Below are positions 10,690 through 61,481 of a stretch of 64,000 bases of DNA, piece after piece. Under the pieces are notes generated by a model. The model was not told the origin of the DNA, did not search any database, and worked only from the letters and a program-made list of their open reading frames with translations. This DNA is from Paracoccus jeotgali (lineage in GTDB: Bacteria; Pseudomonadota; Alphaproteobacteria; Rhodobacterales; Rhodobacteraceae). Every line of letters starts with the position of its first letter. The stretch's first letter is position 1. The stretch spans positions 2,150,501 to 2,214,500 of the forward strand of contig NZ_CP025583.1 in the NCBI RefSeq assembly GCF_002865605.1, read 5' to 3'. A program made the translations under genes and the position numbers.

Positions 10690-12300
10690 CTAACCCTCGT
10701 AATTGTCGCGGATCAGGCGGTTCAGCGTCATCACTCCCCAGCCGGTCGCGCCCTTGGGGGCCAGATCGGTCTCGGCCGGCGGCAGGGCGACACCGGCGAT
10801 GTCGATATGCGCCCAGGGCTGGCTGTCGCGGATGAAGCGCTGCAGGAACTGCGCCGCGGTGATCGAGCCTGCGGGCCGCCCGCCGGTGTTCTTCACATCC
10901 GCCAGCCGGCTGTCGATCAGCTTGTCATAGGCCTTGGACAGCGGCAGCCGCCACGCGCCCTCGCCCTCGACCCCGGCGGCGTTCAGCACCTGCTCGGCCA
11001 GATCGTCGTCATTGCTGAACACGCCCGCGTTTTCATGCCCCAGCGCGATGATCACCGCCCCGGTCAGCGTCGCCAGATCGATCACCGCCGCAGGCTTGAA
11101 GCGGGTCTGCGCGTACCAAAGCACATCGGCCAGCACCAGACGGCCCTCGGCATCGGTGTTGATGACCTCGATGGTGTCGCCCTTCATGCTGCGCACGATG
11201 TCGCCGGGGCGCTGCGCGCGGCCGTCGGGCATGTTCTCGACCAGACCGACCAGACCGACGACATTGGCCTTGGCCCGGCGCAGCGCGAGGGTCCGCATGA
11301 CGCCCGCGACCACCGCCGCGCCGCCCATGTCCATGGTCATCTCTTCCATGCCGGCCGCCGGCTTGATCGAGATGCCGCCGGTGTCGAAGACCACGCCCTT
11401 GCCGACCAGCGCCAGCGGCGCCTGATCGCCGCCCGCGCCGTTCCAGCGCATGACCACGACCTTTGACGGCGATTCAGAGCCCTGCCCCACGGCCAGCAGC
11501 GCGCGCATCCCCAGCTTTTCCAGCTCGTCCTCGTCCAGCACCTCGACCTCAAGGCCGATCTCCTCCATCGCCTTCAGCCGGTCGGCGAAATCGGTGGTGG
11601 TCAGGACGTTGGCCGGTTCGCTGACCAGATCGCGGGTAAAGAAGACGCCCTCGGCCAGGGCCGCGTGATCGCTGGCGGTGCGGGCCAGATCCTCGGGGTC
11701 GGCGCACATGAAGGTGACGCTGGCCCGCGCCGGATCGGGCCGCTCGTCACCGCCATCCTGCGGCGCATCCGCGCCCTCGCGGCGCGCCTGCGCGGCGGCG
11801 TCGCCGGTCACGGCATCCTCGCGCGCACCCGACAGCGTCTGCGCGGGGGCGTCGCCCTGCGGCTGCGTGGCCGCGTCGCCATTCTTGTCGCGGGTCTTGT
11901 AGACCGAGAAGTCATAGCCGCGCAGCGCCAGCCCCAGCGCCACCTCGGCCGCGCGGGGGTGGTTGCCGGCCAGAACCAGCGTCTCGCCCTTGCCCAGCGC
12001 CGCGCCGATGGTGGCCCCGGCCTTGCGCGCCTCGGCGACGCTGGCCTTGCGCGGCAGCTTGATCAGCGTCACCGCCTGCGCCGCCCAGCCGCCCGGAAAG
12101 GACAGCGTCAGCCCCTTGCCCGCCGAGAGGCCCTGCCAATCCGAGGACGCCAAGGCCCGACCCAGCCCCTCACGCGCCGGTCGCGGCAGACCCGAGGGCA
12201 GCTTGCCCCGGTCATCGACGATCAGGGCAATGCGCCCCTCGCGCCGGGTCAGCTCGTCGGTGACGGTTTCAGTGAAGCGGATTTCGACCGGCTGGGTCAT
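10690..12300 (-). CDS. pepA: leucyl aminopeptidase
   Basis: 536 residues, longer than the usual about 490-500. The catalytic domain has the two-metal site motifs VGKGVVFDTGG, TMDMGGAAVVAG and the signature NTDAEGRLVLAD. It removes N-terminal residues from peptides in the cytoplasm. The extra length is a low-complexity Ala/Gln/Asp/Gly-rich stretch at about 137-193, between the N-terminal domain strand DFSVYKT and SVTFMCA; this is where the domain joins the next strand, so it probably forms a surface loop. The frame is intact and both sides are well conserved, so it is an insertion rather than a broken gene. Divergent from lptF. Confidence 0.96.
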   Translation of the reverse strand: MTQPVEIRFTETVTDELTRREGRIALIVDDRGKLPSGLPRPAREGLGRALASSDWQGLSAGKGLTLSFPGGWAAQAVTLIKLPRKASVAEARKAGATIGAALGKGETLVLAGNHPRAAEVALGLALRGYDFSVYKTRDKNGDAATQPQGDAPAQTLSGAREDAVTGDAAAQARREGADAPQDGGDERPDPARASVTFMCADPEDLARTASDHAALAEGVFFTRDLVSEPANVLTTTDFADRLKAMEEIGLEVEVLDEDELEKLGMRALLAVGQGSESPSKVVVMRWNGAGGDQAPLALVGKGVVFDTGGISIKPAAGMEEMTMDMGGAAVVAGVMRTLALRRAKANVVGLVGLVENMPDGRAQRPGDIVRSMKGDTIEVINTDAEGRLVLADVLWYAQTRFKPAAVIDLATLTGAVIIALGHENAGVFSNDDDLAEQVLNAAGVEGEGAWRLPLSKAYDKLIDSRLADVKNTGGRPAGSITAAQFLQRFIRDSQPWAHIDIAGVALPPAETDLAPKGATGWGVMTLNRLIRDNYEG

Positions 12301-54281: not shown

Positions 54282-54592
54282 GTGGCCCCCGGACGCGTGA
54301 ATGTCGGCAAATCGAACGGGGTTATAGTGATGCGACGGTCGGGCGCAAGGGGCAGCGGTCGGGCGGGCGGCGGTGGCGCCGTCGGCATGGCCGCTGCGGC
54401 AGGGGCCAAGGCGGGCCGATCTGCCCCGCCGCGCCGGATGCGGCGGTTGTGGCCCCCTCACGAAAGAAAACTTTCGCGTGAAATCAGCGTGATGAATTTT
54501 GGCATGGAACGGACCGCGCGCCTGCGAATTGAGGTTCAACAACAGCGCCCCATCGACCCTGGGGACGCCGCGGACGAGGGGAGATGCGATCC
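54282..54592. promoter_or_regulatory. divergent control region, carB / cytochrome-amine oxidase operon
   Basis: About 310 bases between divergent start codons. It becomes A/T-richer at 54461-54530, close to the cytochrome gene. A 6-bp inverted repeat CGAAAG-AAAA-CTTTCG (54461-54476) and ATCA-GCG-TGAT (54483-54493) are candidate operators. No FNR box and no clear promoter hexamers were found. Confidence 0.45.
54461..54476. repeat. inverted repeat, possible operator
   Basis: A perfect 6-bp palindrome with a 4-base A spacer, 117 bases before the preferred start of the tri-heme cytochrome gene. A regulator site is possible; the regulator is unknown. Confidence 0.4.
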
Positions 54593-56032
54593 ATGACACG
54601 CGACGGGCCATTCAGCCATTCGCCTCTGGCGCTTGCACTAGGTATCGGGCTGATCTGCGCCGGGCCCGCTCTTTCTGCCGAAGGCGACCCGGACGCGCGC
54701 CTGATCGAAGAGGGCGAATACATCGCCCGCGCCGGCGGCTGCATGTCCTGCCACGGCGAGGATCTGGCCGGCGGCTATGTCATCGACTCGCCCATGGGCG
54801 AGATCGTGGCGACGAATATCAGCCCCTCGGTCGAATACGGGATCGGCGATTATGACCGCGCCGATCTGGAACGTGTGCTGCGCGATGGCGTGGCGCCGGA
54901 CCACCGCCTGTATCCGGCGATGCCGTTCGCGTCCTATCGCGGGATGCGCGACGACGACATCACCGCGCTCTACACCTGGCTGATGGATCAGCCCCCGGTC
55001 GAGCGGCCGCTGACGCAAAAGACCGACCTGCCTTTCCCCTTCAACATCCGCACCGGCATGGGCCTGTGGTCTGCCGTGGCGCTGGGTGAGACCGACCGCA
55101 TCCTGCAAGACGATCCGCAGATTCAGCGCGGCGCCTATCTGGTCGATCATCTCGGCCATTGCGGCGAATGTCACACGCCCCGCAACGCGCTGTTCGCCAT
55201 GGACCAGTCCCGCTATCTGCAGGGCGCCATGATCGATGGCTGGCTGGCCCCCAACCTGACCGGCGACCCGGTTCTTGGCATGGGCGCCTGGTCGACCGAG
55301 GCGATTGTCGATTACCTGCGCGACGGCCACTCGATGAACGTGGCGCAAGCCGCGGGGCCGATGGGCGATCTGGTGGAACACGCCACCAGCCATCTGCATG
55401 AGGACGACCTGACCGCCATCGCCGTCTATCTGCAGGCGCTGCCCTCGGGCCGCGACGCGGACGAGGCGACGCCGACGCAAGCGGCCTTCCTCGCCCCCGA
55501 GCAGGGGCGCAAGCCGACGGTGCTGTATAATCAGATCCGCACCGAACTGGCCGAGGCCGTCCAGCGCACCGACCTGACCCCGGTTCAGGCGCAATATCTG
55601 GACAAATGCGCCGCCTGTCACGGCGTCGACGGGAACGGCCAGCCCTCGGCCTATTACCCGCCCCTGCAGGACAATCTGGCGCTGCGCCGCCCCGATCCCA
55701 CGAACCTCGTGCAGGTGCTGGTCCACGGCATCAGCGCCCGCACGCTTTACCGCGCACCCGGGATGCCCGGATTCGCGGACGAGATGGACAACGCCGAGAT
55801 CGCCACCATGGCCAATTACCTGCGCGTCACCTGGGGCGGGCATCAGGACAGCCAGATCACCGCCGACGACGTGGCCGCGATCCTTGAAGGACAGGACCCG
55901 CCCCTGCTGGTCCGGCTGGCCCCGCCGCTGGCCTGGGCTGGCATCATCATCCTGCTGGCCCTGATCGGCTGGATCGTATGGCTGGTCATGCGCCGCCGCA
56001 ACAACACCCCCGCACAGGAGCCGACGCCATGA
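54593..56032 (+). CDS. membrane-anchored tri-heme cytochrome c
   Basis: 479 residues from the second of two ATGs; GAGGGGAG abuts the first (54584) but is 9 bases from this one. A signal peptide (about 1-30) is followed by three cytochrome c domains with heme sites CMSCH (50-54), CGECH (190-194) and CAACH (339-343). A C-terminal membrane helix (about 445-467) ends in a basic cytoplasmic tail. The layout is that of the AdhB-type cytochrome subunit of membrane alcohol and other dehydrogenases, which pass electrons from a periplasmic dehydrogenase to ubiquinone. Here the partner gene, overlapping by 4 bases, is a FAD amine oxidase, so it probably drains that enzyme. Confidence 0.92.
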
Positions 56033-57624
56033 CCTTTTCGACCCCGACCAGACGACAATTGCTGGCGATGATCGGCAAGGTTGCGGGCAGCGCGGCGATG
56101 TATCAGGCGATGACCTCGATGGGCTTCGCGGCCGAATCCGAATACCGCGACGGCGTCTCGCTGCAAGGCCCCAGAGGCGGCAAGAAGGTGCTGATCCTGG
56201 GCGCAGGCATCGCCGGCATGTGCGCAGCCTACGAGCTGCGCAAGGCCGGATACGAGGTCAAGATCCTCGAATACCAGAACCGCCATGGCGGCCGGGTGAT
56301 GACCATTCGCGGCGGCGATCGCTATACCGATCTGGCCGGCGACGTCATCGACTGCGACTTTGAAAGCGACGGCTATCTGAACCCAGGCCCGTGGCGGCTG
56401 CCGATCCACCACTATGCCGTTTTCGATTACTGCCGCGAGCTGAACATCCCCATCGAGCCGTTCGTGATGAAGAACGACAAGGCCTATCTGCACTCGCAAC
56501 ACGCCTTTGGCGGCAAGCCGCAGCGCGTGGGCCATGTGGAAAAGGACATCCGCGGCAATGTCTCGGAACTGCTGGCCAAGGCGGTCAACCAAGGCGCGCT
56601 GGACGAGGCGGTGTCGCTGGAGGACCGCGAAAAGCTGCTGGAAGGGCTGCGCGACTGGGGGGTTCTGGACAAGGATCTGCGGTACCGCAGCACCGAGGCG
56701 TTGGGCGAATATCGCGGCTGGGACGTGCTGCCGGGCGGCGGGCTGATGCCGGAAAAAGAGCCCTCGACCCCGATGGACCTGTCGCCGCTGCTGCAGTCGG
56801 GGCTGTGGAACCAGATCCTGAACTTCAACAGCTACGAACATGAATCCCCCATGTTCGAGCCGGTCGGCGGCATGGACGGCATCGCCGACGGCTTTCACCG
56901 TCAGGTCGGCAGCGTGATCCAGTATGGCGCCCGCGTCACCCGCATCCAGCAGGGCGATGACGGCGTCACCGTCAGCTATGAAGACGGCGGCCGCGGCGGC
57001 GAGCTGCGTCAGGAAAGCGCCGATTGGTGCATCTGCACGATCCCGCTGTCGGTGCTGGCGCAGTTGCAGGTCGATTGCTCGGACAAGCTGCGCAAGGCCA
57101 TCGGCGCGGTGCCCTATGCCTCGGCCTTCAAGGTCGCGCTGGAATTCCGCCGCCGCTTCTGGGAGGAGGACGACTGGATCGCGGGCGGCATCAGCTATAC
57201 CGACCTGCCCATCGTCCAGATCGCCTATCCCAGCCACGGCTTTTTCACCAAGGGGCCGGCGGTGATCCAGGCGGCCTATGACACCTATACCGCCGGCCGG
57301 AACTACACCTACACATGGTCCAGCCTGTCGAACGAGGAACGGATCGCCGCGGCGCTGCATTACGGCCGCCAGATCCACCCGCAATACGACACCGAGTTCA
57401 TGTCGGGCGTGTCCTGGGCATGGCACCGGGTGCCGTGGACGCTGGGATGTTATGGCCAGTGGACCGAGGATCTGCGCCGGGCGCATTACGAAACGCTCTG
57501 CGAGATCGACAACCGGCTGGTGCTGGCGGGCGAGCATTGCTCTCATATCCCCGCCTGGATCGAAGGCGCGCTGCTGTCGGCGCTGGATACCGTCAGCCGG
57601 CTGGACCAACGGGAGAATGCGTGA
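56029..57624 (+). CDS. Tat-exported FAD-dependent amine oxidase/dehydrogenase
   Basis: 531 residues. A twin-arginine signal peptide (RR at 8-9, TRRQLL; end near 35) precedes a flavin amine oxidase fold. The dinucleotide motif GAGIAG is at 58-63, the GGR motif at 87-89, and the C-terminal FAD signature in LAGEHCSHIPAWIEGALLSA. It resembles L-amino-acid oxidases and monoamine oxidases, but no motif fixes the substrate. Made between a tri-heme and a mono-heme cytochrome c by 4- and 1-base overlaps, it likely passes electrons to heme c in the periplasm rather than to oxygen, as known for nicotine oxidoreductase with its cytochrome. Export needs TatABC, encoded at 7.1-8.8 kb. Confidence 0.9.
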   Translation: MTFSTPTRRQLLAMIGKVAGSAAMYQAMTSMGFAAESEYRDGVSLQGPRGGKKVLILGAGIAGMCAAYELRKAGYEVKILEYQNRHGGRVMTIRGGDRYTDLAGDVIDCDFESDGYLNPGPWRLPIHHYAVFDYCRELNIPIEPFVMKNDKAYLHSQHAFGGKPQRVGHVEKDIRGNVSELLAKAVNQGALDEAVSLEDREKLLEGLRDWGVLDKDLRYRSTEALGEYRGWDVLPGGGLMPEKEPSTPMDLSPLLQSGLWNQILNFNSYEHESPMFEPVGGMDGIADGFHRQVGSVIQYGARVTRIQQGDDGVTVSYEDGGRGGELRQESADWCICTIPLSVLAQLQVDCSDKLRKAIGAVPYASAFKVALEFRRRFWEEDDWIAGGISYTDLPIVQIAYPSHGFFTKGPAVIQAAYDTYTAGRNYTYTWSSLSNEERIAAALHYGRQIHPQYDTEFMSGVSWAWHRVPWTLGCYGQWTEDLRRAHYETLCEIDNRLVLAGEHCSHIPAWIEGALLSALDTVSRLDQRENA

Positions 57625-58361
57625 TGCGTTGCTTGCTCGCCTTGCTGAGCCTGTCGCTTGCCGCCCCTGCCTTCGCGCAGGACGCGCCGGTCGTCGGCCC
57701 CGAATCCCCCACCCGGCCCGTCGAGTCGGCGCAATCCGGCACCCCGCCCGCGCCTGACAGCCTGGATGGCGCTGCCTCGCGGAACGGAGCGGCTGAGGCG
57801 GAACGGATGAACGGCAGCGACCCTGCCGCGCCGCGCGGTGAGGCGCCGCGCGATCCGCAACCCGCTGCCGCCGACGCGCAGGACGCGACCGCCTCCGGCG
57901 CAGCGAACGGTGCCCAGTCCCGCAAAAGCTCCGGCTTCGTCACCATCCCCGGCCCGCCGAAGGCGCGCGCGCAGGACCAACAGGCGCGGAAAGAGATCGT
58001 GCGCTCTGGCCCGATGCTGGACGCGATCCTCGCCGAGTTCTCGCAGCAGGGGCATCGCTTTACCCAGACCGATGGACGCGCGCTCTATCAGACCACCTGC
58101 CGCGCCTGTCACATGGAAGACGGCAAGGGGGCCGAGGGCGCGGGCGCCTATCCGCCGCTGGCCGGAAACCCCAAGCTGCGCTCGCGGCACTTCGTGATCG
58201 ACGTATTGGTGACCGGCTATCACGGCATGCCGCGCTTTGGTGACCAGTTCGACGATGAACGCGTGGCCGCCGTCACCAATTATATCCGCACCCATTTCGG
58301 CAACAGCTACAGCGACGAGGCCACCGCCGCCGACGTCGCCGCCCTTCGCGGCGGAAACTAG
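57624..58361 (+). CDS. secreted mono-heme cytochrome c
   Basis: 245 residues. A signal peptide (1-19, APAFAQ) is followed by an about 90-residue Pro/Ala-rich low-complexity linker (20-110) and a class I cytochrome c domain with CRACH at 159-163. A candidate distal methionine is in YHGMPRFGD. Likely the soluble or tethered electron carrier of the amine oxidase upstream (overlap of one base, TGATG). The linker could let the heme domain reach between partners. The gene ends 9 bases from the convergent tctA stop. Confidence 0.9.
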   Translation: MRCLLALLSLSLAAPAFAQDAPVVGPESPTRPVESAQSGTPPAPDSLDGAASRNGAAEAERMNGSDPAAPRGEAPRDPQPAAADAQDATASGAANGAQSRKSSGFVTIPGPPKARAQDQQARKEIVRSGPMLDAILAEFSQQGHRFTQTDGRALYQTTCRACHMEDGKGAEGAGAYPPLAGNPKLRSRHFVIDVLVTGYHGMPRFGDQFDDERVAAVTNYIRTHFGNSYSDEATAADVAALRGGN

Positions 58362-58370
58362 ACGGCGGAG

Positions 58371-59873
58371 CTAGACAGCGGGCCGGGCCTCACGCCGCGC
58401 CCGGATGGCCCGCCACGCGGAATGGGTCAGCAACAGCGCGGTGCCGATGACGAAAACCGCCGCGATGGGGCGCTCCAGAAAGGTCATCGGGTCCCCGCGC
58501 GAGATTAGCAGCGCCCGGCGCAGGTTCGTCTCGATCAGCGGGCCCAGCACGAAACCCAGCAGCAGCAGCGCCGGGCTGAACCGCGCCAGCGTCAGCGCAT
58601 AGCCGGCGGCCCCGATGGCGGCGACCATCAGGATGTCGAAGCTCGCCCCCCGCACCGACCAGACCCCCAGACAGACAAAGACCAGAATCGCCGGATACAG
58701 CCAGCGGAACGGCAGGCGCAGCATCGACACCCACAGCCCGATCAGCGGCAGGTTCAGGATCAGCAGCAGCAGGTTGCCGATGCCAAAGCTCGCCACCAGC
58801 CCCCAGAACATGTCGGGCCGGGCCTGCAGCATCATCGGGCCGGGCTGCACGCCGTGGATGACCAGCGCGCCCAGCATCAGCGCCATGATCGGGTCGCCCG
58901 GTATCCCCAGCGTCAGCGTCGGCACGAAGGCGGTGATCGCGGCGGCGTTGTTGGCCGATTCCGGGCCGGCCACGCCCTCGACCGCGCCCTTGCCGAACCG
59001 CTCGGGCTCACGCGCGATGCGGCTCTCCATGCCATAGGACAGGAACGAGGACAGCGTCGATCCCGTCCCCGGCAGCGCCCCGAAAAAGCTGCCCAGTGCC
59101 GCCCCGCGCAGCGTCGGCATCGGCATCCGGCGCAGATCGTCGCGGGTCGGGATCAAGGCGCGCAGTGCCACATGGGGCGGCGGACCGGTCCGCTCGGCCT
59201 GGCGGATATTGCCGATCACCTCGGCCACGCCGAACAGCCCCATCGCCAGCGCGACAAGGTTGATCCCGTCCAGCAATTGCGTCTGCCCGAAGGTGAACCG
59301 CTGCACGCCCGAGTTCACGTCCGTCCCCACGCAGCCCAGGATCATCCCCAGCACCACCATCGCCAGCCCCTTGGCCGCGCTGCCCGACCCGATGGTCGAG
59401 GCCGCGACCAGCCCCAGCACCATCATCGCCGCGTAATCCGCCGCGCCAAAGGCCGTGGCCGCCCGCGACAGCATCCCCGACAGCGTGACCAGCACCGCGA
59501 TCCCGATCATCGAGCCGGTAAAGCTCGACATCATCGACACGAACAGCGCCACCCCGGCCCGGCCCTGCTGGGCCATGGGATAGCCGTCCAGCGTCGTGAC
59601 CGCCGATTGCGGCGTCCCCGGCAGGCGCAGCAGGATCGACGCCACCGCGCCCCCGTACTGAGAGCCGTAATAGACCCCTGCCAGCATGATCAGCGCGCTT
59701 TCCGGGCTGATGTAATAGGTGATCGGCAGCAGCAGCGAGATGGTGGCCATGGCCCCGATCCCCGGCAACACGCCGACAAAGGTGCCCAGGACCACGCCCA
59801 GCACGCACCAGACCAGCACCTCGGGCGAGGTGGCGACGGCAAGGCCGTGCAGGAACCCGTCCAGCCCGCTCAT
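58371..59873 (-). CDS. tripartite tricarboxylate transporter, TctA permease
   Basis: 500 residues from the ATG at 59873 (MSGLDGFLHGLAV). About twelve membrane helices, with family motifs GVLPGIGAMATISLLLPITY, YYGSQYGGAVASILLRLPGTP and the second-half repeat FGALPGTGSTLSSFLSYGME. The large permease of a TTT system, which imports carboxylates with help from a periplasmic binding protein. The start overlaps tctB by 4 bases. The substrate is not evident. Confidence 0.95.
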   Translation of the reverse strand: MSGLDGFLHGLAVATSPEVLVWCVLGVVLGTFVGVLPGIGAMATISLLLPITYYISPESALIMLAGVYYGSQYGGAVASILLRLPGTPQSAVTTLDGYPMAQQGRAGVALFVSMMSSFTGSMIGIAVLVTLSGMLSRAATAFGAADYAAMMVLGLVAASTIGSGSAAKGLAMVVLGMILGCVGTDVNSGVQRFTFGQTQLLDGINLVALAMGLFGVAEVIGNIRQAERTGPPPHVALRALIPTRDDLRRMPMPTLRGAALGSFFGALPGTGSTLSSFLSYGMESRIAREPERFGKGAVEGVAGPESANNAAAITAFVPTLTLGIPGDPIMALMLGALVIHGVQPGPMMLQARPDMFWGLVASFGIGNLLLLILNLPLIGLWVSMLRLPFRWLYPAILVFVCLGVWSVRGASFDILMVAAIGAAGYALTLARFSPALLLLGFVLGPLIETNLRRALLISRGDPMTFLERPIAAVFVIGTALLLTHSAWRAIRARREARPAV

Positions 59874-60304
59874 CGGCGCGGCCACAGCGGCAGGTTCATG
59901 GCCAGCGCCAGATGAAAGACGCCGACGGCGATGACGCAGACGCCGCAGCCCAGCAGCAGCCGCCACAGGATGCCGCCCCGCGGCGCTGCGGCCGAGGCGA
60001 CCAGCACGCTGACGAAGGTGGTCAGGACCAGGCCCAGCCGCTCGACCCCCAGCGCAAAGATCACGATGGCCGACAGCACCGCCACCAGTTCCGGCAGCGC
60101 GGGCCGAGGCATCAACTGGCCGCCGCGCAGCAGCGCCACGCTGCCGCCCAGCAGCGCCAGCGCCAGCCCCAGACCCAGCGGGAAAAAGCCCGGCCCCATG
60201 CGGCGCGGGGTGCCGATGTCATAATGCAGCGCCGCATATCCGGCCACCGCCAAGCCAATCGCGGCCAGGATTGCCCCGGCCGCGAGATCCTGTCTGTCCT
60301 GCAT
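59870..60304 (-). CDS. tripartite tricarboxylate transporter, TctB small permease
   Basis: 144 residues with four membrane helices. The motif GTPRRMGPGFFPLGLGLAL is the TctB signature. Partner of TctA in the membrane complex. 4-base overlap with tctA and 5 bases after the tctC stop. Confidence 0.93.
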   Translation of the reverse strand: MQDRQDLAAGAILAAIGLAVAGYAALHYDIGTPRRMGPGFFPLGLGLALALLGGSVALLRGGQLMPRPALPELVAVLSAIVIFALGVERLGLVLTTFVSVLVASAAAPRGGILWRLLLGCGVCVIAVGVFHLALAMNLPLWPRR

Positions 60305-60309
60305 CTGCC

Positions 60310-61281
60310 CTACTTTGCGTCGACGCGGTCCAGCACCGCGCCCCAGACCTGCGTATCATCCTTGATCCGCGCGGCCAGCTCGTCAGCCGAGCCGCCCACG
60401 GCCACCCAGCCCATATCCAGCAGCTTGCCCTGCACCTCGGGGTCAGCGAGGATCTCGTTGATCTCGGTGTTCAGCCGCTCGACAATGGCCGGATCGGTGC
60501 CGGCGGGCGCGATGAAGGCGTTCCACAGCTCGGCGCGGAAATCATCGGGCAGACCCGCCTGCCCCGCCATGACCAGGACGTCGGGGATCTGCGCGAAGGG
60601 CTCGGCCGAGGTCACGCCCAGCATCTTCATGTTGCCGGCCTCGACATGCCCCATCGCGGCCGAGGGCGCCATGAAGCCGGACTCGATCTCGTTCCCGATG
60701 ATCGCGGTCGTCACCTCGGCGTAAGAGGTAAAGGGGATGTGCAGCATCTCGACCCCGGCGCGGTCGGCGAACAGCTCCGCCGTCAGATGCGCGCCCGACC
60801 CCTGCCCGACCGAGCCATAGCTCAGCGCCTCGGGTTCGGCCTTGGCGGCCTCGATGAAACCGGCCAGATCGTCCGGCCCGTCCTTGCCCACCGCCAGCAC
60901 CAGCGGCGAGGTCGCGATCAGCGTGACAGGGGCGATGTCGGCCTCGACATCATAACCCAGATCGGCGACCAGCCGGGGCGAGGTGGTCAGCGGGCCGTTG
61001 ATGGTGGTGCCGAAATTATGCCCGTCATCCTTGGCCGCGAGCATCTGCTGAATGCCGATGACGCCGCCCGCGCCGGGCTTGTTCTCGATCACCACCGGCT
61101 GGCCCAGACGCTCGGCCAGCGGCTCGGTCACGATCCGCGCCAGCAGGTCGGGCGAAGAGCCGGCGGGGAAGCCGACATAGACGTGAACCGGCTGCGTGGG
61201 CCAGGCATCCTGCGCGGCCACGGACCCCGCGATCAGGGCAGAGGCGCAGGCCATGGCGGCGATCTTCAGGCGGTTGGTCAT
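60310..61281 (-). CDS. tripartite tricarboxylate transporter, TctC binding protein
   Basis: 323 residues from the ATG at 61281. A signal peptide (1-23, SVAAQ) precedes a Bug-family receptor fold (TQPVHVYVGFPAGSSPDLLARI, QPVVIENKPGAGGVIGIQQM, LSYGSVGQGSGAHLTAELF). Bug proteins bind organic acids or other small molecules with an apolar substrate pocket; specificity cannot be read here. First gene of tctC-tctB-tctA. Confidence 0.95.
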   Translation of the reverse strand: MTNRLKIAAMACASALIAGSVAAQDAWPTQPVHVYVGFPAGSSPDLLARIVTEPLAERLGQPVVIENKPGAGGVIGIQQMLAAKDDGHNFGTTINGPLTTSPRLVADLGYDVEADIAPVTLIATSPLVLAVGKDGPDDLAGFIEAAKAEPEALSYGSVGQGSGAHLTAELFADRAGVEMLHIPFTSYAEVTTAIIGNEIESGFMAPSAAMGHVEAGNMKMLGVTSAEPFAQIPDVLVMAGQAGLPDDFRAELWNAFIAPAGTDPAIVERLNTEINEILADPEVQGKLLDMGWVAVGGSADELAARIKDDTQVWGAVLDRVDAK

Positions 61282-61481
61282 GTCGGTTCCCTTCGCGGCT
61301 TGAATGTCCCTGCCACTAGTGCCGACCGAACCCCCTGCGGTCAAGGGATCAGGGGGGGGTGGGCAGTCGGCTTGCGCGCACCCGCACCACGGGGGGACCG
61401 CACCATGGTCGCACCTATGGGTGTAAACGGATGGCCGCCGCACAGCGGTTTGATCCGGTCTCCCTTCCCCCAGTCAGACGC

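Follow-up and report, generated by a model that had tools for sequence, protein, structure and literature searches.

What would a flavin amine oxidoreductase (FAO) do in one operon with a tri-heme cytochrome c whose nearest relatives belong to sugar dehydrogenases? The question is raised by three overlapping genes of Paracoccus jeotgali, which lie in a stretch of 64,000 nucleotides (contig NZ_CP025583.1, positions 2,150,501 to 2,214,500; hereafter the window) and encode, in this order, a tri-heme cytochrome c, an FAO with a signal of the twin-arginine translocation (Tat) type and a mono-heme cytochrome c. A first-pass annotation, made from the letters of the window alone, had described the three genes and their coordinates, overlaps of 4 and 1 bases, the number of CxxCH heme sites in each cytochrome, a membrane anchor, the twin arginines, a motif for binding flavin adenine dinucleotide (FAD) and a Pro/Ala linker, and all of these were borne out. 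We propose that the trio is probably a self-contained periplasmic L-amino-acid dehydrogenase, in which electrons would run from FAD through the mono-heme and then the tri-heme cytochrome to quinone or an oxidase.

The flavoprotein and its likely substrate

The FAO matches the Pfam family Amino_oxidase (E 4.3e-53), and the sequence TRRQLL precedes its GxGxxG FAD motif. Its best solved relative is the L-amino acid oxidase (LAAO) of Rhodococcus opacus (RoLAAO, 2JAE; E 1.7e-84), with other LAAOs next, and a 25-sequence profile of the FAO matched RoLAAO at E 1.5e-139. The AlphaFold2 model (mean predicted local distance difference score, pLDDT, 84.9; predicted template-modeling score, pTM, 0.84) also found RoLAAO as its top Foldseek match (TM-score 0.94 on the target, 35% identity). 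Sequence, profile and predicted fold all place the FAO in the LAAO branch. A NicA2-type amine dehydrogenase was considered as its family and is not favored, the LAAOs being nearest by each of these methods; no chain named nicotine oxidoreductase was present among the 17 solved-structure matches at 1e-10, or among the best 60 of 74 matches of the profile search.

To judge individual residues we used the 79 rows of an FAO tree, which derive from 81 examined loci after two duplicates (L100 and L106) and a split gene (L097) were dropped and both FAOs of L115 were counted; the sampling is whatever the searches returned and is uneven. The aligned twin arginines are kept in 78/79 (R8) and 79/79 (R9) rows, 73 of which follow the strict RR-x-hydrophobic pattern, and Trp510 is a tryptophan in every row. 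Arg123 aligns with RoLAAO Arg84, which we take to be the residue holding the substrate carboxylate. Tyr371 of RoLAAO, presumably a carboxylate-binding tyrosine, was set by pairwise alignment against Tyr420, which is not conserved; Tyr417, its probable equivalent, lies three residues earlier. At the position aligned with RoLAAO Trp426, each of the 14 rows from loci with the three-gene set, that of the window among them, has a Tyr, and the residue varies in the other rows. Because of the kinship to LAAOs in sequence and fold and the invariance of the Arg84-aligned arginine, an alpha-amino acid is the likely substrate. The first-pass annotation had left the choice between an amine and an amino acid; the cytochrome-coupled dehydrogenase that it had suggested stands as the best reading, and the same kinship and arginine narrow its substrate to an L-amino acid. 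It is quite unlikely, in our judgment, that the likeness to LAAOs is one of fold only and that the enzyme acts on an amine or on some other compound that is not an amino acid: the breadth of the Pfam family and the Tyr at the Trp426 position would allow it, but the arginine is invariant, LAAOs are the best match by three methods, and many sister operons carry the imine deaminase RidA.

Gene neighborhoods of the FAO family

Genes on the same strand and within 1.8 kb were counted as neighbors of each FAO. A cytochrome c gene adjoins the FAO in 68/79 rows, and a tri-heme gene is present in 14 of those 68; by neighborhood, the rows divide into cytochrome and RidA (33), cytochrome alone (21), tri-heme gene and cytochrome (14), none of these (10) and RidA alone (1). 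Seven Spirosoma FAOs (L016-L022) have the twin arginines and neither a cytochrome c nor a RidA gene detected alongside; they are candidates for O2-using kin or for users of another acceptor.

Of the 27 loci from a scan of species genomes, 26 were examined (a fragment, L028, was left out), and 10 of these have the order tri-heme, FAO, mono-heme. Together with the window, a plasmid locus of Roseinatronobacter sp. S2 and loci in two further genomes (G482 and G427) this gives 14 distinct trio loci, in 11 Rhodobacterales, in Moraxella atlantae and in two genomes outside the class; besides Moraxella atlantae, the hosts include Roseinatronobacter, Natronohydrobacter, Rhabdonatronobacter, Palleronia, Roseovarius and Marivita. 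Gene order, on which the first-pass annotation had made its proposal depend, is thus kept in 13 other distinct loci. Distances among the three proteins correlate over the 14 loci (r 0.90-0.96, with 0/2000 permutations as high), a correlation for which shared descent alone can suffice. Since the trio recurs in these other loci and its protein distances correlate, the arrangement is not due to chance. The FAO is itself uncommon in the genome samples: counting the window genome, a close match (E <= 1e-150) was found in 8/296 genomes of the family and 17/397 genomes of the phylum. In the tree the trio FAOs form one clade (100/99) nested among rows with a cytochrome or with a cytochrome and RidA, and because of this nesting the simplest history would be that the tri-heme gene joined an FAO-cytochrome pair once. 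In Roseinatronobacter thiooxidans (L003) the trio is followed, after about 0.7 kb, by another flavin amine oxidase gene (10769-12106), whose product begins with a twin-Arg-like sequence.

The commonest operon in the family runs FAO, cytochrome c, exported RidA. RidA lies beside the FAO in 33 of the 54 cytochrome-bearing rows that lack a tri-heme gene, and in 0/14 trio loci within the fetched stretches, the window operon included; in L004 and L005 the contig stops 15 and 116 bases, respectively, after the cytochrome gene, which leaves 12 trio loci that can be judged on that side. The presence of the tri-heme gene and the absence of RidA count as a single evolutionary event and not as 14 separate observations. 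We inspected 31 RidA N-termini by eye, and most of them resemble Sec or lipoprotein signals, several of the open reading frames having over-extended starts. As signal-bearing RidA adjoins the FAO in so many relatives, the sister operons suggest that an imino acid is formed in the periplasm. The best match to an operon-type RidA in the stretches searched of the window genome was at about E 2e-5. With RidA absent wherever the tri-heme gene is present, the role of RidA outside the cytoplasm is open to direct test.

Similar arrangements occur on plasmids, 16 of whose 38 matches were inspected (two of the 16 without annotation). An explicit FAO, cytochrome c and RidA set was found in Comamonas, Microvirga ossetica, Sulfitobacter, Paracoccus marcusii and Ketogulonicigenium; in Dinoroseobacter, Mesorhizobium AR07, Rhizobium gallicum and Thiodictyon the FAO and cytochrome c have no annotated RidA adjoining. 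Two Deinococcus plasmids (L050 and L127) carry the cytochrome c gene ahead of the FAO and no RidA, and in both species the locus adjoins malate synthase and malic enzyme genes. A Sphingomonas plasmid has RidA about 3 kb from the FAO and no cytochrome c, and a Metabacillus plasmid has an FAO and Rid, again with no cytochrome c. On this last plasmid, pBY2G20 of the Gram-positive Metabacillus dongyingensis (L128, 4974-8237), a 39% identical FAO has behind it the genes of a Rid protein with a signal, of TatA and of TatC, an arrangement that looks like a dedicated Tat translocase accompanying an FAO-Rid pair.

The two cytochromes

The tri-heme protein aligns over nearly its full length with the cytochrome subunits of fructose dehydrogenase (7w2j; E 4e-85) and glucose dehydrogenase (E 3.5e-84), and the alcohol dehydrogenase subunit comes next in the same family (E 2.6e-69). 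Both features of such a subunit, three CxxCH sites and full-length similarity, are present. The first-pass annotation had called the protein AdhB-type and traced it to alcohol dehydrogenases; AdhB is rejected as the closest relative, the fructose and glucose dehydrogenase subunits being closer. The usual partner of tri-heme subunits of this type is a GMC or a pyrroloquinoline quinone (PQQ) dehydrogenase; here it is an FAO of the LAAO branch, not either of these. A hydrophobic C-terminus was seen by eye in all 11 operon tri-heme homologues aligned from the 14 trio loci. The window genome has one other tri-heme homologue, 40% identical over residues 45-428 and with three CxxCH sites, which sits behind a GMC oxidoreductase gene, a partner of the usual kind; no C-terminal anchor was visible in it by eye. 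The mono-heme protein has a Pro/Ala-rich linker of about 120 residues ahead of its one CxxCH, and its cytochrome domain resembles, among others, the last heme domain of the fructose, glucose and alcohol dehydrogenase tri-heme subunits. Judged by eye and by motif pattern, as were the signals and membrane anchors of all three proteins, the FAO has a Tat-type signal and the adjoining mono-heme gene encodes a Sec-like one.

These relationships allow a branched wiring, in which the FAO would reduce the tri-heme cytochrome directly for transfer to ubiquinone and the mono-heme protein would carry electrons to a terminal oxidase or a peroxidase. The tri-heme subunits closest to that of the window, those of the fructose and glucose dehydrogenases, serve the flavin subunit of their enzymes, and the three-CxxCH paralogue behind a GMC dehydrogenase gene fits the same scheme. 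We nevertheless give the branched wiring a minor chance, since it is the mono-heme and not the tri-heme gene that has been kept through the FAO family (68 vs 14 of 79 rows), which makes the mono-heme cytochrome the likelier direct acceptor.

Proposed function of the trio

For a linear chain through both cytochromes, we envisage that the FAO would be folded with FAD and then exported by the Tat pathway, and would oxidize an L-amino acid to an imino acid and FADH2. The FADH2 would pass electrons singly to the mono-heme cytochrome, the anchored tri-heme cytochrome would collect them for ubiquinone or a terminal oxidase, and the imino acid would hydrolyze to a keto acid and ammonia without an exported RidA. 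We infer from genes and alignments the substrate class, the use of a cytochrome instead of O2, the sequence in which the two cytochromes act and the final acceptor. FAO-cytochrome genes lie near ctaD/coxB cytochrome c oxidase genes at three distinct loci (L045, L051 with its duplicate L106, and L105), which is in line with a respiratory link and sets no general rule. The oxidase clusters at these loci, in Roseinatronobacter S2 (L045), on Dinoroseobacter pDSHI02 (L051) and in G330 (L105), have a ctaD of about 860 residues. A terminal oxidase as constant partner of the FAO-cytochrome genes was rejected, as it occurs at these three distinct loci only among those examined.

Several observations weigh against a cytochrome-coupled L-amino-acid dehydrogenase. 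No cytochrome c gene adjoins the FAO in 11/79 rows, RoLAAO is itself an O2-using oxidase, and Lys368, the lysine that favors O2 reactivity in oxidases, is kept in 76/79 rows. With Tyr at the Trp426 position and the Tyr371-aligned Tyr420 not conserved, side-chain specificity may differ from that of RoLAAO. RidA is common and not universal, 21 cytochrome rows having neither RidA nor a tri-heme gene, and the five RidA-family genes of the window genome all start without a visible signal, which leaves the handling of the imine unexplained.

The kept lysine, and the fact that the closest characterized enzyme is named an oxidase, would suit a Tat-exported L-amino-acid oxidase using O2, with the cytochromes dealing with peroxide or serving another process. 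That the genes overlap, keep their order and have diverged in a correlated way makes this very unlikely in our view, as does the finding, in passages of Akram et al. 2025 (PMC12224317), that FAOs with an adjacent cytochrome c were mostly dehydrogenases in published tests; the same passages report that the O2-favoring lysine is kept in nearly all of those dehydrogenases as well.

Within the dehydrogenase reading, a more detailed account can be given. The trio could be a membrane-anchored four-heme L-amino-acid:acceptor oxidoreductase that arose once, when the tri-heme gene was put before an FAO-cytochrome pair, that lost or never had an exported RidA, and that has since moved between bacterial classes; we see the chances of this whole account as evenly balanced. 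If true, it would add a further use of the tri-heme module beside the GMC sugar dehydrogenases and the PQQ or molybdenum alcohol and aldehyde dehydrogenases. Comparison of the trio with its RidA-bearing relatives also makes directly testable how a flavoprotein changes its electron exit.

Probable horizontal transfer

Among the trio FAOs, that of the window shares 67-73% identity with those of the ten other Rhodobacterales loci. Of 36 other genomes belonging to its genus, 12 gave an FAO match at 1e-60; these matches are 50-53% identical, apart from the split FAO of G031, one of the 12, whose two parts are 51 and 55% identical. This gene (L097, 5977-7562) is broken into two frames in a low-completeness genome, the cytochrome and RidA genes still being there. 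The 11 intact FAOs of the genus stand with a cytochrome and RidA in nine cases and with a cytochrome alone in two, and the P. marcusii FAO falls among these same-genus rows in the tree. The trio of G482, a genome outside the class, is 71-72% identical to that of the window and its FAO lies inside a seven-row group of Paracoccaceae and other rows (99/96; exact sister group 91/54). On the basis of the FAO tree, the simplest reading would be that the trio has moved horizontally. Stretches of about 8 kb at the carB flank in 15 same-genus genomes gave tri-heme, FAO and Tct matches in 0/15, and the L171 stretch has one weak match to a cytochrome (30% over 74 residues); L178-L180 gave no match even in their short overlap with carB, and their placement relies on the coordinates of an earlier carB search. 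The absence of the trio beside carB says little beyond local arrangement.

Layout of the locus

The TGA of the tri-heme gene (56030-56032) overlaps the FAO start, whose ATG begins at 56029, and position 57624 is both the end of the FAO gene and the start of the mono-heme gene. An alternative in-frame ATG for the tri-heme gene lies upstream at 54584; the start at 54593 is preferred because its spacing from GGGGAG is better. A scan of the region for promoters and terminators returned two promoter-like and two terminator-like sites, none usable for the operon. On the 5′ side the trio is flanked by a divergent carB gene on the - strand, named by recognition and by its matches in other genomes, and on the 3′ side by a convergent TctABC transporter (58371-61287, - strand). 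The transporter was rejected as a functional partner, as it is on the opposite strand and other genes occupy its place in the other trio loci sampled, for which rough gene calls were made and one or two flanking genes in six loci were taken to Pfam.

Table 1. Positions of the three genes and of their motifs in the window
Feature	Position	Strand	Detail
Gene 1, tri-heme cytochrome c, N-terminal signal and C-terminal membrane anchor	54593..56032	+	479 residues
Gene 1, heme site 1, CMSCH	54740..54754	+	sequence
Gene 1, heme site 2, CGECH	55160..55174	+	sequence
Gene 1, heme site 3, CAACH	55607..55621	+	sequence
Gene 1, C-terminal hydrophobic anchor, then RRR	55919..55996, approximate limits	+	by eye
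Gene 2, Tat-type FAO	56029..57624	+	531 residues
Gene 2, twin-arginine pair, residues 8-9, in TRRQLL	56050..56055	+	sequence
Gene 2, FAD-binding GAGIAG, residues 58-63	56200..56217	+	sequence
Gene 2, Arg123, aligned with RoLAAO Arg84	56395..56397	+	R in 79/79 FAO rows
Gene 2, Tyr417, probable equivalent of RoLAAO Tyr371	57277..57279	+	Y 74/79, F 5/79
Gene 3, mono-heme cytochrome c, Sec-like signal, long Pro/Ala linker	57624..58361	+	245 residues
Gene 3, heme site, CRACH, residue ~159	58098..58112	+	sequence

Comparison with known systems

In fructose and glucose dehydrogenase complexes the tri-heme subunit serves an exported flavin subunit; we know of no separate mono-heme gene with these enzymes, nor of a cytochrome partner of RoLAAO. 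The FAD-dependent fructose and glucose dehydrogenases (7w2j, 8hdd) resemble the window in their homologous tri-heme subunit with a hydrophobic C-terminal end, whereas their flavoprotein is a GMC oxidoreductase for sugars. For the FAO, RoLAAO (2JAE) is the closest solved structure. Slr0782, an L-arginine oxidase/dehydrogenase of Synechocystis, likewise acts on an amino acid with FAD, and its electrons have been suggested to enter the electron transport chain instead of going to O2, but, according to the passages of PMC2242806 used here, it has putative transmembrane helices, and no operon cytochrome is mentioned in them; we set it beside the window FAO by description.

Closer in layout are NicA2/CycN and their kin, in which, as far as extracts of PMC12224317 describe them (see also PMC9396064), a Tat-exported FAO is likewise paired with an operon-encoded cytochrome c. 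Tat-signal FAOs with adjacent cytochrome c genes were largely dehydrogenases preferring their own cytochrome in the work of Akram et al. These enzymes differ from the window in that they were found with NicA2 as the query and that the cytochromes partnering clade 1 are of the diheme c4 type and not tri-heme; the main text of PMC12224317 makes no mention of L-amino acid, LAAO, triheme or RidA.

The nearest described arrangement is lao-cccA-ridA of Gluconacetobacter diazotrophicus PAL5, where, in the excerpts of Rodrigues et al. 2016 (PMC5053998), a Tat-signal LAAO modeled on RoLAAO is clustered with a cytochrome c gene. According to these excerpts, a Tn5 insertion in lao abolishes the formation of indole-3-acetic acid (IAA) from Trp, lao is required for the conversion of Trp to indole-3-pyruvate and IAA, and ccm mutants, which the authors cite, have a like defect (about 5% of wild-type IAA); the roles of the cytochrome as electron acceptor and of RidA are the authors' hypothesis. 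Passages of Niehaus et al. 2015 (PMC4433059) add that RidA hydrolyzes LAAO-made imines and that genes for Rid proteins and for FAD amine oxidases occur in clusters. One lao primer given in PMC5053998, translated in frame, reads YPSHGYF against YPSHGFF at residues 400-406 of the window FAO, a small sign of kinship for which the primer stretch alone was compared. The window operon has the FAO and adjacent cytochrome c of this type without RidA, and lao-cccA-ridA is the reverse, having RidA and, in the excerpts, no mention of a tri-heme cytochrome. The loss of IAA in lao mutants (PMC5053998) also suggests another role for the trio, namely extracytoplasmic production of keto acid or ammonia, for instance of indole-3-pyruvate as a signal to algae or plants, with respiration as the electron sink. 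We consider this unlikely as the main role, for it leaves the extra tri-heme cytochrome unexplained, and it is compatible with the L-amino-acid dehydrogenase that we favor.

The first-pass annotation had recognized no described system with this exact set, and the combination of a sugar-dehydrogenase-type tri-heme cytochrome with an LAAO-branch enzyme and without RidA was not found in the literature searched, most subscription papers lying outside it; passages of PMC2765452 contributed nothing about the operon. The FAO-cytochrome c core, in contrast, is known in kind, being described in the parts of PMC5053998 and PMC12224317 cited above. The tri-heme cytochrome in place of RidA looks like an undescribed variant of that core, one that is neat and can be tested and that introduces no new principle.

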